Shown: positions 7,137 to 25,600 of the stretch, piece after piece
Numbering within the stretch: position 1 is the stretch's first letter
How the letters are laid out: each line of letters begins with the position of its first letter
Source of the DNA: a virus
IMG/VR virus record: IMGVR_UViG_3300047494_000120
Span: 1 to 25,961 of that record
DNA: 25,961 nucleotides
Direction: 5' to 3' (one strand)
The notes under the pieces: model-generated
Told to the model about the DNA's origin: nothing
The model's input: the letters and a program-made list of their open reading frames with translations, nothing else
Database searches by the model: none
Translations under genes and position numbers: made by a program

Positions 7137-7227
7137 ATCGGGCCGCAGGCTATGACGGTGCCTCCGGAGACGGCAACCCCGTTATTAGCGTTCTTAAACC
7201 GCTCTTAATTTGAAGTTGGCAGGCTGA
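7137..7227 (-). promoter_or_regulatory. Intergenic gap at the Mu PI position; candidate late control region
   Basis: Ninety-one bases between the end of G and the terminator. In Mu the C-activated promoter PI lies in the same place. Two 9-bp direct repeats, CGTTCTTAA (7189-7197) and CGCTCTTAA (7200-7208), are offset by 11 bp, about one helical turn, as in tandem activator half-sites. Just downstream is an AT-rich TAATAA (7187-7182). I cannot define convincing -35/-10 boxes; the terminator downstream of it would require some read-through or antitermination if transcription starts here. Confidence 0.4.
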
Positions 7228-7755
7228 TCAGGTCGGCCAGGGCTGCCCGGTGATCACCCGCTGCAGAAAGTGATCCGTCGTCGCCAGAACGGTGACCCGA
7301 TCCGCGTCGGAAAACCCGAGGTAGGGACGCGCCGGAATCGTCACCTTCTTCGCGAAGACGACGCCGTCCGCGAGGCGGAAGACGAGCGCGCGGGCTTTCA
7401 CGGGCACGATCGTCGCACCGAACTGATGGACGGCCGCGTAGACCTTCGAGCTGCCGATCGCGACCTGGTGGTTGTTCGGCTGAGAGGTGATGCTGTCCTG
7501 CAGGCCGCCGTTCATACCGAGGCCGATCAGGATGCTCGGGCCCTCCTTGATCCTGGCATAGTCCGGCCGGAGCGCTTTCCACGGATGGTCGTCGGGATCG
7601 CGTCCCGCCCTGAACCGATCGCGCGTGTTACTGACCAGGGCGTGGCCGATCGACGCCATCAGCGGCGTGAAGTCGGAGCTGAGCTTGCGCAGCTGGGCGA
7701 GCGCCGTGTCGATCTGGCCGCTGTCGATTTCGACGGTGAATTCTACGCCGGCCAT
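7228..7755 (-). CDS. Virion morphogenesis protein (Mu gpG-like)
   Basis: A 175-residue protein from ATG 7755 (MAGVEFTVEIDSGQ); CAGG lies 7 nt before it, which favours it over the ATG at 7761. The N-terminal sequence, the central DRFRAGRDPDDHPWKALRPD and the motif VYAAVHQFGATIVPVKARAL are typical of the phage virion morphogenesis/tail completion family (Mu G, P2 S type). These act at the head-tail joining end of the tail. It is separated from F by 139 nt in which I see no convincing gene. Confidence 0.88.
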   Translation of the reverse strand: MAGVEFTVEIDSGQIDTALAQLRKLSSDFTPLMASIGHALVSNTRDRFRAGRDPDDHPWKALRPDYARIKEGPSILIGLGMNGGLQDSITSQPNNHQVAIGSSKVYAAVHQFGATIVPVKARALVFRLADGVVFAKKVTIPARPYLGFSDADRVTVLATTDHFLQRVITGQPWPT

Positions 7756-17525: not shown

Positions 17526-17549
17526 CGAGCGTCCCCGCCAAGGTTATCG

Positions 17550-17735
17550 CTACAGCCGTTCGAGGGTGCGCTGCATATCCTCGTGCAGCAGCTTGCAGAT
17601 GTGCCCCACGCCGGAGAGCGGGAGGCCATGGAGTTCGTCGTCGGGCCGATCGAGCAGGACCGAGAGGAACTCCAGCGCGGCGACGTTGCGGTAGATCTCC
17701 GCCACCGCCGCGTAGTCCGTGTCGTTACCCGGCAT
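17550..17735 (-). CDS. Unknown small acidic protein
   Basis: A 61-residue protein (MPGNDTDYAAVAEIYRNVAA) that looks like a single helical unit (LEFLSVLLDRPDDELHGLPL, then HICKLLHEDMQRTLERL). It overlaps the upstream gene by 11 nt and ends 24 nt before GemA. No family is recognised. The sensible protein composition and coupling are the only support. Confidence 0.5.
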   Translation of the reverse strand: MPGNDTDYAAVAEIYRNVAALEFLSVLLDRPDDELHGLPLSGVGHICKLLHEDMQRTLERL

Positions 17736-18084
17736 CGCGTAGCTTGGCCGCGAGTTCGATGGCCTGGATAGAGTAGCCGAACCGGTCTGCCATCTTGTGA
17801 AGCTCGGAAAACTCCTCGTCCGCCTCTTTCCGTATCTTGGTCGCGCGCTCGTAGTCCTGGACCAATTCTTCCAACGTAGGCGGCCCGGAAACGTTGGCGT
17901 GGATGATGCTGCCGGTCTCCGTCATGTCGAAGACACAAAACAGGCTCAGCCGTTTCGCGCAGAGCTTCGCATGGGCTCGGTCGAGCTCGTTCAATGCCTC
18001 TTCCGTGCCCAGTTCCAGCGCGACTTCCGCGAAAGCCCCGGTAAGATCCTCTTTCTTGACGATGACGATTTCTGTCCAATCCAT
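17725..18084 (-). CDS. Unknown 119-residue protein
   Basis: Begins MDWTEIVIVKKEDLTGAFAE, three bases after the BRO-like gene. The first half is predicted alpha/beta, the second half contains a charged coiled coil (LEELVQDYERATKIRKEADE, EEFSELHKMADRFGYSI). Its base composition is somewhat less G+C-rich than the head genes. No domain is recognised; because it follows the BRO-like gene directly it may be part of the same small module. Confidence 0.55.
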   Translation of the reverse strand: MDWTEIVIVKKEDLTGAFAEVALELGTEEALNELDRAHAKLCAKRLSLFCVFDMTETGSIIHANVSGPPTLEELVQDYERATKIRKEADEEFSELHKMADRFGYSIQAIELAAKLRDAG

Positions 18085-18087
18085 GGC

Positions 18088-18738
18088 TCAGCCCTCTTCC
18101 GTATCGAGCGAAAGCGAAAGTTGGTTCGCCCGCGCGAGTTGCTTCACATGCCGCTGCACCGACCGATCGCTGTAGCCCGCGAACACGGCTTCGTTGTTGT
18201 TCTCCCGCAATGCGGCCTCGATCCGAGCTTTTTGCTTGGAGAGCTCCACCCTCTGGACGGCCAGACGGTCCATCAGTGGGTCGGCCAGCGGCGGACCATC
18301 CCCACGTTGCAACGCTTTGATGGCCTCGACCGTGAGTGTGCCGTCCTGGAACTGGCGCAGGACTTCGTCCAGCGCCAAAATCCCTTCCTTGGGCAGCGGC
18401 GCCAGGTGTCGCGCTGCGCGAACAAGGGCTCGCTTCGGAGGCTCGAAGACGGCGGCGATGAGCCAGTCCACCACCTCGTCCTTTCCTTCCGTGTTGGAAT
18501 AGCACATCATCTTGAACACGCCCTGCTTGCTGAAGTAGCGCACGTTCTGAGTGCCGCCCTTGGTCTCCTCCGGGATCAGAACAGTCTCTCGATCCGTGAA
18601 GTTGTGCTTCGCCAACATCCTTTTGAGGGTTGCCGAATGGATGCCAAGGGTGGCGCAAATTTGCGCCCCCCTTACCCATATCTGACCGGCCGCCGAAGAC
18701 ACGGTAGGCGGCAATGTGGTGAATGATAACGCAGTCAT
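18088..18738 (-). CDS. BRO-N antirepressor-like protein
   Basis: A 216-residue protein with an excellent ribosome site (AGGAG, 6 nt before ATG 18738). Residues about 18-100 follow the BRO-N pattern: W21 and GAQICATLGI, a central segment RETVLIPEETKGGTQNVRYF, then FSKQGVFKMMCYSNTEGKDE and VVDWLIAAVF, corresponding to the SGLY...S...F..W block. The rest is helical and charged, with RSVQRHVKQL near the end. BRO-N proteins of phages bind DNA and often act as antirepressors. Unusual for the centre of a Mu-like early operon; preceded by a structured leader. Confidence 0.65.
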   Translation of the reverse strand: MTALSFTTLPPTVSSAAGQIWVRGAQICATLGIHSATLKRMLAKHNFTDRETVLIPEETKGGTQNVRYFSKQGVFKMMCYSNTEGKDEVVDWLIAAVFEPPKRALVRAARHLAPLPKEGILALDEVLRQFQDGTLTVEAIKALQRGDGPPLADPLMDRLAVQRVELSKQKARIEAALRENNNEAVFAGYSDRSVQRHVKQLARANQLSLSLDTEEG

Positions 18739-18754
18739 AATGCGCTCCTAGAGT

Positions 18755-18867
18755 CGGAACGGCCCCATGCCATTCCGGGTGGTGGAAAGCTGCTCTAGGG
18801 ACAGCCGCGCATGTCTTTAGGTCGCGCTTTCGCGCCACCATTGGACATTCACATGCGCCACCCGGAA
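18755..18867 (-). promoter_or_regulatory. Structured leader with nested and mutually exclusive inverted repeats
   Basis: Within a 273-bp gene-free stretch (18739-19011). In message direction: outer arms TTCCGGGTGG (18867-18858) and CCACCCGGAA (18782-18773), a perfect 10-bp pair; inside it GCGCATGT (18858-18851) and ACATGCGC (18814-18807), a perfect 8-bp pair; inside that a hairpin GGU-G-GCGC, loop GAAA, GCGC-G-ACC (18839-18820). The 3' outer arm shares CGGAA with a second hairpin, CGGAATGGC/GCCGTTCCG (18777-18755, one mismatch), which stops 5 bases before the AGGAG of the BRO-like gene. The two folds cannot form together. A perfect -35 hexamer TTGACA (18982-18977) lies upstream but has no good -10. 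Confidence 0.45.
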
Positions 18868-19011
18868 GTAGGGGATTGCCCGCTACGCGGAGGCCGGCGC
18901 CTAGATCAGCTTCACCTGCGGGTCGGTTTCCACACCGTCCCGAGGCGGCCGAACGGTGGAACCGGACCGCGCATTCTGTCAACTGGTTTGTGAAACGCGT
19001 GGGAGACGGCC

Positions 19012-23537: not shown

Positions 23538-23841
23538 CGACCGGCATCGCCCTCCAACCGAGCGCCTCTCGGGCGTTTCTGATCGCTCTCAAGAAGGGCA
23601 GATTTGGATCGGCCACCTCACGCTCGCGTTGCTCTGCGGCAAGAAGAGCAATGTGCGCCACCATGGCCCACTCGTAAGTCGAGAAGTCTACGGCCCATGA
23701 AAAGGAAGCGGATTTCATCCCGCTTGCGCCTATGTCCAGCAAGAATGCCGCGACGCTGGATCTGGGCCTCGCCAGTGACTCGTCGAGGAGCTCACTGCAG
23801 AGCTTACCGACTTCCTCTGATCGTTTGACCTTGTTGGTCAT
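23530..23841 (-). CDS. Unknown 103-residue protein upstream of the transposase
   Basis: Begins MTNKVKRSEEVGKLCSELLD; helical and Trp-containing (SFSWAVDFSTYEWAMVAHIA, FLRAIRNAREALGWRAMP). It overlaps the upstream stop by one base and the transposase by 8 nt, so it is translated as part of the early operon. No family is recognised. Confidence 0.6.
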   Translation of the reverse strand: MTNKVKRSEEVGKLCSELLDESLARPRSSVAAFLLDIGASGMKSASFSWAVDFSTYEWAMVAHIALLAAEQREREVADPNLPFLRAIRNAREALGWRAMPVDD

Positions 23842-24302
23842 TACCTTCCCCCTCGCCGGACCTCGCGGCGCAGCATCTGCGCGCGAGCCGCCATCTCCCG
23901 GCGCCGCTCTTCGATGGCTGCGAGCTCGATCATCTTGATGTAGGACTTGTCCACGGCGACGAGCCCGTGAGGCTCGGCGATGAACTGGATTAGGCGAACG
24001 TCCCCGGTTGCTTCGGCGAGCGCGTGAAAGCGAGGAACGCTGATCTGGTGACTTTCCCTCTGCGGGGACGAGTAGGCGTTCAGGATGTTGACGCTGATGC
24101 TGCGGCCTATGATGGTCGACATGCGATCAGCGATTTCGTAACGCGATCGACCGCAGCTTTCGAGTGAGACGGCGATTGCTCGGGCAAGCCGCCCTTCGAA
24201 GGTGCTTCCACGAATGACGCGCTCCTCGAAACGCGTGACGGCCTGAGGTGGCTCCCAATCGAGCAGGCTGAGCTGCTCGTCGACAGTTGCGCGCCGTCGC
24301 AT
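23841..24302 (-). CDS. Unknown early protein
   Basis: A 153-residue protein from ATG 24302, chosen for GGAGG 6 nt upstream and the one-base overlap with the ParB-like stop. Begins MRRRATVDEQLSLLDWEPPQ. The central part (RLARAIAVSLESCGRSRYEI, ADRMSTIIGRSISVNILNAY) resembles a helix-turn-helix or DNA-binding helical bundle, and the C terminus is basic. Related uncharacterised proteins accompany the ParB-like gene in Mu-type early regions. Function unknown. Confidence 0.6.
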   Translation of the reverse strand: MRRRATVDEQLSLLDWEPPQAVTRFEERVIRGSTFEGRLARAIAVSLESCGRSRYEIADRMSTIIGRSISVNILNAYSSPQRESHQISVPRFHALAEATGDVRLIQFIAEPHGLVAVDKSYIKMIELAAIEERRREMAARAQMLRREVRRGGR

Positions 24303-25132
24303 CAGGCGCCTCCCTTCCTGCGGAGGGCACTTGGAGCGCTCACATAGGCGAGGATTGCTTTTTTCTCGTCGTTGGTCGCCTTGGCCCACAGCAAAAGGAA
24401 CTTATCGTAGATCCCCGGAGCGGCCTTCTTCGGCCGCTGCTGCACAGTGCGGAGGATGTCTTCGACGATCCGGATTTTCGACTCCGGGTTTTCGGCGATG
24501 AACTGGGCGACGGCCTTTTGCTCGTCGGGTGTCTTCCGGCTCAGCGCTTCCAGTTGCGTCTGGCTGTTCGCGAGCCATGTGGTGCTGATCGTCGCTCGGA
24601 CATCTGGCCTGATATGATCGTTCAGTGCCAGGGCGCGGCGGATCGCTCGCGGCGACAGCCCGACCCTCTCACGCTGTGCTTCCGTGAAGGTAGGCACCAA
24701 ATGGCCAAGCTTGGCCATACGGTCTAACTTATTGTTTTGTCTAGTTTTCGGATCGCCGCCATGAGCGGTTTCCGGATACATCTCGTCGTGGATCGCCTTT
24801 AGCTCTGCGAGGAAGACGGCCCGGTCGAGTGGCGTAAGCTCGCGCCTGCGAAGGTTCTCTTCGATCTCCAGGCGCCGGGCGACCATGTCGTCCGCCTCCA
24901 AGATGACGGCGAAGATTGTCTCGGAGCCGAGGAGCTGCTTTGCCCGCAGCCGATGCGCTCCAGCGATGAGACCATAGATACCGGACTGGCGCCCGATTTT
25001 CCGGACCTCGATAGGTGTCCGCTGACCGTCCTCCTCCATGGATTCGGCGATCAGCTGCGCGTAGTCCTCGTCGATCGCTCGGAGCCGATCGCCGATCCGG
25101 ATCTTGGCGATAGGGATCTCTTCGACGTTCAC
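24302..25132 (-). CDS. ParB/Srx-fold nuclease-like protein of the early operon
   Basis: A 276-residue protein. The N-terminal ParB domain (1-100) has IPIAKIRIGDRLRAIDEDYA, the box LIAGAHRLRA (55-64) replacing ParB's GERRYRA, and EIEENLRRRELTPLDRAVFL (89-108). A helix-turn-helix segment follows (about 150-175, LSPRAIRRALALNDHI). The C-terminal part is helical and basic. In chromosomal ParB this fold binds CTP and parS DNA; in phages similar proteins may be nucleases or DNA-binding regulators. The gene overlaps the Ner-like gene by 4 nt. Which activity it has cannot be told from sequence. Confidence 0.82.
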   Translation of the reverse strand: MNVEEIPIAKIRIGDRLRAIDEDYAQLIAESMEEDGQRTPIEVRKIGRQSGIYGLIAGAHRLRAKQLLGSETIFAVILEADDMVARRLEIEENLRRRELTPLDRAVFLAELKAIHDEMYPETAHGGDPKTRQNNKLDRMAKLGHLVPTFTEAQRERVGLSPRAIRRALALNDHIRPDVRATISTTWLANSQTQLEALSRKTPDEQKAVAQFIAENPESKIRIVEDILRTVQQRPKKAAPGIYDKFLLLWAKATNDEKKAILAYVSAPSALRRKGGA

Positions 25133-25434
25133 GCGGCGGTCCTTTTTGCACGCAGCGCATCCGCCGGTGTCCGGGTAGGACTGCGGTCAGCACGATGCGA
25201 AAGAGGAGAGCCATCCGGTGACCACCGATCAGGCCATAGAATGTGGAGGTCCACTTGCAGCTCGGCGGCGATCAGTCGCTCGACGTGTCGCGAGTAGCCA
25301 GGGGCACTCAAGGTCGCGGAAATCGCGGTCGGGCTCTTCAGCCCCCAATGATGGCCGAGGGCTGACAGCGAGCCGTATCGCTTTCTCAGCTCTGCCTTAA
25401 TATCCTCAATATGCCAGGTCTTCTGGCTGTCCAT
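25129..25434 (-). CDS. Ner-like early transcription regulator
   Basis: A 101-residue protein from ATG 25434 (AAGGA, 6 nt upstream). Residues 1-72 resemble Ner/Nlp: DIKAELRKRYGSLSALGHHW and ALGHHWGLKSPTAISATLSA (helix-turn-helix), then HVERLIAAELQVDLHILWPD and the characteristic WPDRW end. The C-terminal 30 residues are basic and extra to short Ner proteins. Ner of Mu turns down the early and repressor promoters once lytic growth starts. First gene of the minus-strand early operon, divergent from the repressor. Confidence 0.86.
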   Translation of the reverse strand: MDSQKTWHIEDIKAELRKRYGSLSALGHHWGLKSPTAISATLSAPGYSRHVERLIAAELQVDLHILWPDRWSPDGSPLSHRADRSPTRTPADALRAKRTAA

Positions 25435-25600
25435 TTGCTGTCCTTTCCGAGGCAATCCATCCGTCTGTCACGAAAACCATCCGAATGATCGTCTGAGCAT
25501 CTTATGCGTCCATCTTGCTGTCACGTCCACCATCAAATCAGTTGTCGGTTCGATTTTTATAGTAGCTGAGCCAACTTATTGATAAAACACGGAATATTTC
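25435..25600. promoter_or_regulatory. Divergent early/repressor control region
   Basis: One hundred sixty-six bases between the Ner-like gene (minus) and the repressor (plus), the place of Mu Pe/Pc and operators. Two 17-bp direct repeats with 3 mismatches, CTGTCACGAAAACCATC (25465-25481) and CTGTCACGTCCACCATC (25518-25534), and one arm GTTGTCGGTT (25541-25550) of the palindrome found at 25625-25652 lie in it. An AT-rich segment (25554-25600) separates these from the repressor start. I cannot place convincing -35/-10 boxes. Confidence 0.6.

Follow-up and report, generated by a model that had tools for sequence, protein, structure and literature searches.

A probable C4-type antisense RNA gene upstream of the Bro-N antirepressor gene of a Mu-like phage

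The CI RNA of satellite phage P4, a small RNA released by processing, pairs with sites in the leader that precedes it, a trait through which it is likened, by description only, to the RNA discussed here. The C4 RNA of phages P1 and P7 (RF01695; c4-a1b1, RF03163) is encoded 5' of an antirepressor gene. In phage P1 it has three stems and is processed by RNase P; its b' segment covers ribosome sites, and its a' segment gives specificity (PMC5320573). The order at the phage P1 locus is a1, b1, c4 RNA, a2, b2 over the ribosome site, icd and ant. As read from the sequence, the P3 loop contains b' (TCACTAAC), the partner of b2 (GTTAGTGA), and the linker contains a' (CTGTCAA), the partner of a2. The sar RNA of phage P22, a different antisense RNA that is also likened by description only, pairs with the ant mRNA and blocks antirepressor translation (PMC12197685). 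sRNA-Xcc1 (RF02221) is a Northern-confirmed Xanthomonas RNA, with no function established in that work (PMC2996969). A literature search on C4-like antisense RNAs returned only an Acinetobacter paper.

The window, meaning the whole stretch of 25,961 nt analysed here, is a fragment of a Mu-like phage that encodes MuA, MuB, DUF3164, GemA and gp27, with genes on the minus strand. Positions 18739-19011 (273 nt, between the gene for a 119-aa protein and the Bro-N gene) score as non-coding by codon usage, and a protein-coding reading was rejected on that ground. An element at 18867-18773 on the minus strand, just 5' of the Bro-N antirepressor gene, has the architecture of the phage P1 C4 antisense RNA, not that of a riboswitch, attenuator or MITE. 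We put the probability at about 0.88 that it is a C4-type antisense RNA gene, whose three-stem RNA would act on the antirepressor transcript. In a relative 81% identical to the window (L002), homology ends exactly at 19011. L002 from 5206 on, compared with window 17526-19011, has the element and the Bro gene replaced by a cassette with a protein that by eye is GcrA-like; the two are swapped together, which suggests a regulator module exchanged as a whole. The window also holds a palindrome (GGCGCAAATTTGCGCC) at 18650-18675, within the start of the Bro gene, which may be chance or an operator. Early regulators at 23841-25455 on the minus strand comprise an HTH_35 protein and a ParB_N protein, and the same region has a weak match to phage CII (CP76) just under its cut-off.

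The nested stems described in the initial annotation are all present in this leader. The 10-bp pair joins 18773-18782 with 18858-18867, and the 8-bp pair joins 18807-18814 with 18851-18858, base 18858 being common to both. The hairpin at 18820-18839 has a GAAA loop and a G-G mismatch, and the second hairpin at 18755-18777 has 9 bp with one G-U; its CGGAA is indeed part of the outer stem as well, an overlap also found in relatives. Folding of 162 nt of the minus strand, a check the annotation had proposed, gives -76.5 kcal/mol versus -62.1 in shuffles (z -3.19; 2 of 200 shuffles as good), and the 111-nt core of that strand reaches z -3.59, with none of 200 shuffles as good. Folding of the plus strand is less unusual (z -1.97). 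Beyond what had been annotated, the leader contains a 3' hairpin (18806-18788) with a loop complementary to the Shine-Dalgarno sequence, as well as two complementary sites upstream of the element (a1 and b1). The gene and the parts of the fold are as follows.

18088-18738, minus strand: Bro-N antirepressor, the regulated gene (Pfam Bro-N, E 1.1e-6; PHROG anti-repressor Ant, E 3.8e-9)
18858-18867, minus strand: P1 stem, 5' strand (TTCCGGGTGG), found by pairing and paired in relatives
18773-18782, minus strand: P1 stem, 3' strand (CCACCCGGAA), found by pairing and paired in relatives
18851-18857, minus strand: P2a stem, 5' strand; 7 of 8 P2a pairs have changes on both sides in relatives
18808-18814, minus strand: P2a stem, 3' strand, with covariation in relatives
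18843-18848, minus strand: P2 internal loop, conserved AUGUCC side, from the alignment; the opposite side is CUAAAG (18820-18815)
18820-18839, minus strand: P2b apical hairpin with GAAA loop, from the fold and the alignment of relatives
18788-18806, minus strand: P3 hairpin presenting b'; at least half of b' is in the hairpin loop in 39 of 46 homologues
18755-18777, minus strand: P4 hairpin, with CGGAA in common with P1; a stem of at least 6 bp in 83% of homologues versus 12% in shuffles

Relatives were found through the form of the element. Searches of the window against Rfam, at the gathering cut-off and at E up to 10, gave nothing significant; nucleotide searches of phages and plasmids gave no homologue. 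The Bro protein as bait recovered no close relative, only weak matches, and DUF3164 as bait recovered Mu-like relatives that nearly all lack the element. Four matches to a 17-mer of the loop were judged to be chance. A gapped DNA search pattern based on the outer stem yielded two true homologues (L096 and L098), which directly precede antirepressor genes (P22_AR_N and Bro-N); two further matches to this pattern (L095 and L097) were rejected as unrelated hairpins. A covariance model of three sequences (R1) then added L100, L104 and L099 and, more weakly, L060, L016 and L018, and a second pattern, built from relatives of that stage, gave 64 stretches. Records very near the window may be absent from these searches. 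The set analysed, which counts the window's own copy, consists of 53 elements of viral contigs, all with complete flanks and with loop regions that differ from one another. Most of it came from a pattern in which CCGGGTG, ATGTCC and AAAG were required, and these bases therefore carry no independent weight. The conservation of AUGUCC is partly imposed by the search, but the motif is also present in L096, L060 and L016, which were found without that pattern.

The leader stems are real and conserved. The covariance-model check for covarying bases, also proposed in the annotation, finds that the stems covary. Across P1 and P2a in 50 sequences, where the P1 core is fixed by the search pattern and so is uninformative, 95.1% of cells are paired, 144 cells show double changes versus 33.7 in shuffles, and the covariation score is 0.433, compared with 0.156 for shuffles and at most 0.151 for slid versions. 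In the genome matches of model R2, read by eye, the P1 sequence itself changes and stays paired. The outer stem, the 8-bp stem and the hairpin at 18755-18777 recur in homologues with compensatory changes, and the apical hairpin recurs with altered sequence. Homologous leaders in which stems break without compensation were looked for, and the stems hold. The domains ORF6N, P22_AR_N, Bro-N and pRha occur in phage antirepressors and in regulators related to them. Of 46 downstream proteins, 16, 14, 10 and 5, respectively, match these domains, and the search pattern is blind to downstream genes.

The loop of P3 and the linker that follows it are complementary to sequences on both sides of the element, at the sites below.

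18977-18982, minus strand: TTGACA box, probably the -35 element of the promoter that serves the antisense/antirepressor unit; TTGAC is conserved in homologues
18927-18933, minus strand: a1 (GTGGAAA), complementary to a' and covarying across homologues
18900-18905, minus strand: b1 (TCTAGG), complementary to b' and covarying across homologues
18793-18799, minus strand: b' (CCTAGAG), complementary to b1 and b2, from the sequence and comparison with homologues
18782-18788, minus strand: a' (TTTCCAC), the linker, complementary to a1, from the sequence and comparison with homologues
18747-18753, minus strand: b2 (CTCTAGG), overlapping the Shine-Dalgarno AGGAG (18745-18749), from the sequence and comparison with homologues

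In the family, b' complements the Shine-Dalgarno region of the gene that follows the same element. Most members have a second site for b' some 35-51 nt before the element; the site complementary to a', which lies in the linker after P3, is about 61-78 nt upstream. The longest perfect match of the P3/linker region to the flanks was scored in all 53 members, and flanks of other members and shuffled flanks are given as controls because some matches are chance. A match of at least 7 nt to the downstream flank is found in 0.906 of members for their own flank, 0.160 for those of other members and 0.078 for shuffled ones; the upstream values are 0.981, 0.191 and 0.125. For a' and the upstream flank, matches of at least 6 nt occur at 0.925 (own) and 0.121 (other members). 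The first three members keep the b'-b2 pairing by compensation (CCUAGAG/CUCUAGG, UCCUUCG/CGAAGGA and UCCUGCA/UGCAGGA). Ten of the 53 members, mostly of other subtypes, have a downstream match to a' of at least 6 nt, like a2 in phage P1, and in the window no a2 site is present between the RNA and its target gene. In 41 of 52 homologues TTGAC stands about 120 nt (95-130) before the element, compared with 3% of shuffles; a good -10 hexamer was sought for this putative promoter and not found.

The directly supported features (stems, covariation, complementarity that is kept within elements but mostly fails between them, position before antirepressor genes and the conserved TTGAC box) are consistent with the following course, which most likely amounts to a small antisense RNA keeping the lysogeny-breaking antirepressor of a Mu-like phage switched off, as C4 does in phage P1. 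Transcription from a promoter near 18982 would run through a1 and b1 into the three-stem RNA, in which P1 bears the arms P2 and P3, and on into the antirepressor gene. The RNA would be processed out of the transcript, as by RNase P in phage P1, and would display b' in the loop of P3 and a' in the linker. Acting in trans, b' would pair with b2 on other copies of the transcript and cover the Shine-Dalgarno sequence, so that no antirepressor is translated. In addition, a' and b' may bind a1 and b1 close to the 5' end, with early arrest of transcription as the probable result. A lysogen full of the RNA would stay quiet, and loss or outrunning of the RNA would free the antirepressor. Action in trans is suggested by analogy with phage P1 and by the pairing itself: a single b' can occupy only b1 or b2 at a time, which favours a separate RNA. 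One point against the scheme is the conserved P2 internal loop, which antisense action does not explain.

The RNA could be a direct homologue of Rfam C4 (RF01695) to which the Rfam model gives too low a score, a question of descent and not of mechanism, so that its likelihood overlaps with that of the C4-type reading itself. The two agree in topology, in how the sites are arranged and in the type of gene targeted. However, at E values up to 10 the Rfam C4 model matches neither the window stretch nor L060, L016, L099, L100 or L104, with phage P1 c4 scoring 68.8 bits as a control in the same search; nor does it find a match at the gathering cut-off in 37 loci. Model R2 in turn does not match phage P1 c4, and P2 differs from that of C4 in sequence and form. 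With the same plan, the RNA would work as C4 does; direct homology, given that neither model finds the other's RNA, is less likely than not.

The initial annotation proposed that competing stems control the ribosome site in the manner of a riboswitch or attenuator. The structured leader of the Bro gene, its overlapping stems and its bearing on the ribosome site all stand. The riboswitch or attenuator design was rejected as most likely wrong in favour of the C4-type architecture, since a variable, covarying loop complements the Shine-Dalgarno sequence and an upstream site; Rfam searches of the window matched no known riboswitch family. A purely cis-acting switch has also been considered, in which b' forms a pseudoknot with the Shine-Dalgarno sequence of the same mRNA and P1 alternates with P4, the choice being made by a ligand or protein bound at the AUGUCC/CUAAAG loop. 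It would suit the spacing of b' and b2 (some 40 nt from each other on a single transcript), the conserved P1/P4 overlap and the existence of the internal loop, but it leaves b1 and a1 unexplained, though both covary equally well. The wider group (genome loci and sRNA-Xcc1) keeps mainly the upstream sites, and the loop letters vary freely, as expected of antisense specificity. Such a switch is therefore improbable as the whole account, and some of the pairing could still take place in cis. The suggestion of a degenerate palindromic mobile element (MITE or REP) lying in the leader by chance draws on the palindromic arms and on L002, which lacks both leader and Bro gene, but it can be given next to no weight, as a single copy is present in the window record and in each of three related phage records, which were searched in full, antirepressor genes stand downstream of the copies, the element covaries with flanking sites and has its own conserved TTGAC box, L002 swaps a whole regulator cassette and not the element alone, and no dispersed, regulator-independent copies with target-site duplications were seen.

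The family of the C4-type element is widespread and so far absent from Rfam. In a sample of 289 genomes from the class to which a metagenome-assembled proteobacterium belongs, 30 are matched by model R2. In the 21 matches that were read, upstream complementarity of at least 7 nt is found in 95% for own flanks and 16% for others, and downstream complementarity in 29% and 8%; by eye, most of these 21 do not lie before recognisable antirepressor genes. Many of the genome loci L169-L188 keep a1/b1-like upstream sites, without b2, before unrelated genes, and L183 has two copies about 330 nt apart. The Mu-like phage locus L060 carries a type II hammerhead ribozyme (7182-7256, plus strand; 61.9 bits, gathering 37) between its DUF3164 gene and the antisense RNA.

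sRNA-Xcc1 looks like an RNA of the same kind, judging from sequence. Its model aligns end to end with the window at 19.1 bits and with L104 at 29.0 bits, below the gathering score of 53; several genome places are matched by both this model and R2, and in both families the loop and linker match their own upstream sequence. sRNA-Xcc1 differs in its P2 and has little downstream complementarity. Among loci from the sRNA-Xcc1 search (L192-L221), most of which score under that family's cut-off, upstream complementarity of at least 8 nt is found in 77% for own flanks and 7% for other loci. sRNA-Xcc1 and its sub-threshold relatives are probably C4/CI-type antisense RNAs, which suggests a function for this orphan family.

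Compared with C4 of phages P1 and P7, the window has a three-stem RNA likewise 5' of an antirepressor gene, with b' in the P3 loop complementing b2 at the ribosome site and b1 upstream, and a' in the linker complementing a1 upstream. Unlike C4, its family has a longer P2 with the AUGUCC/CUAAAG internal loop and adjoins a Bro-N, P22_AR_N, ORF6N or pRha gene with no intervening icd; the window itself lacks a2, having the P4 hairpin in its place, and its phage is Mu-like, unlike P1 and P7. C4-type control would thus extend to four antirepressor domain families beyond the reach of the Rfam C4 model, and the covariance model also flags antirepressor loci in raw sequence. The letters of a' and b' should predict which phages silence each other's antirepressors, giving a readable immunity code for many phages. 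Tentatively, and with the odds somewhat against so broad a scheme, C4, sRNA-Xcc1 and the window family may be branches of one large, mostly unrecognised superfamily of phage and mobile-element immunity antisense RNAs, in which a single three-stem scaffold would carry interchangeable a'/b' letters that define immunity groups, act on upstream sites only (by termination) or also on the ribosome site, and bind a common host factor through the AUGUCC/CUAAAG loop.
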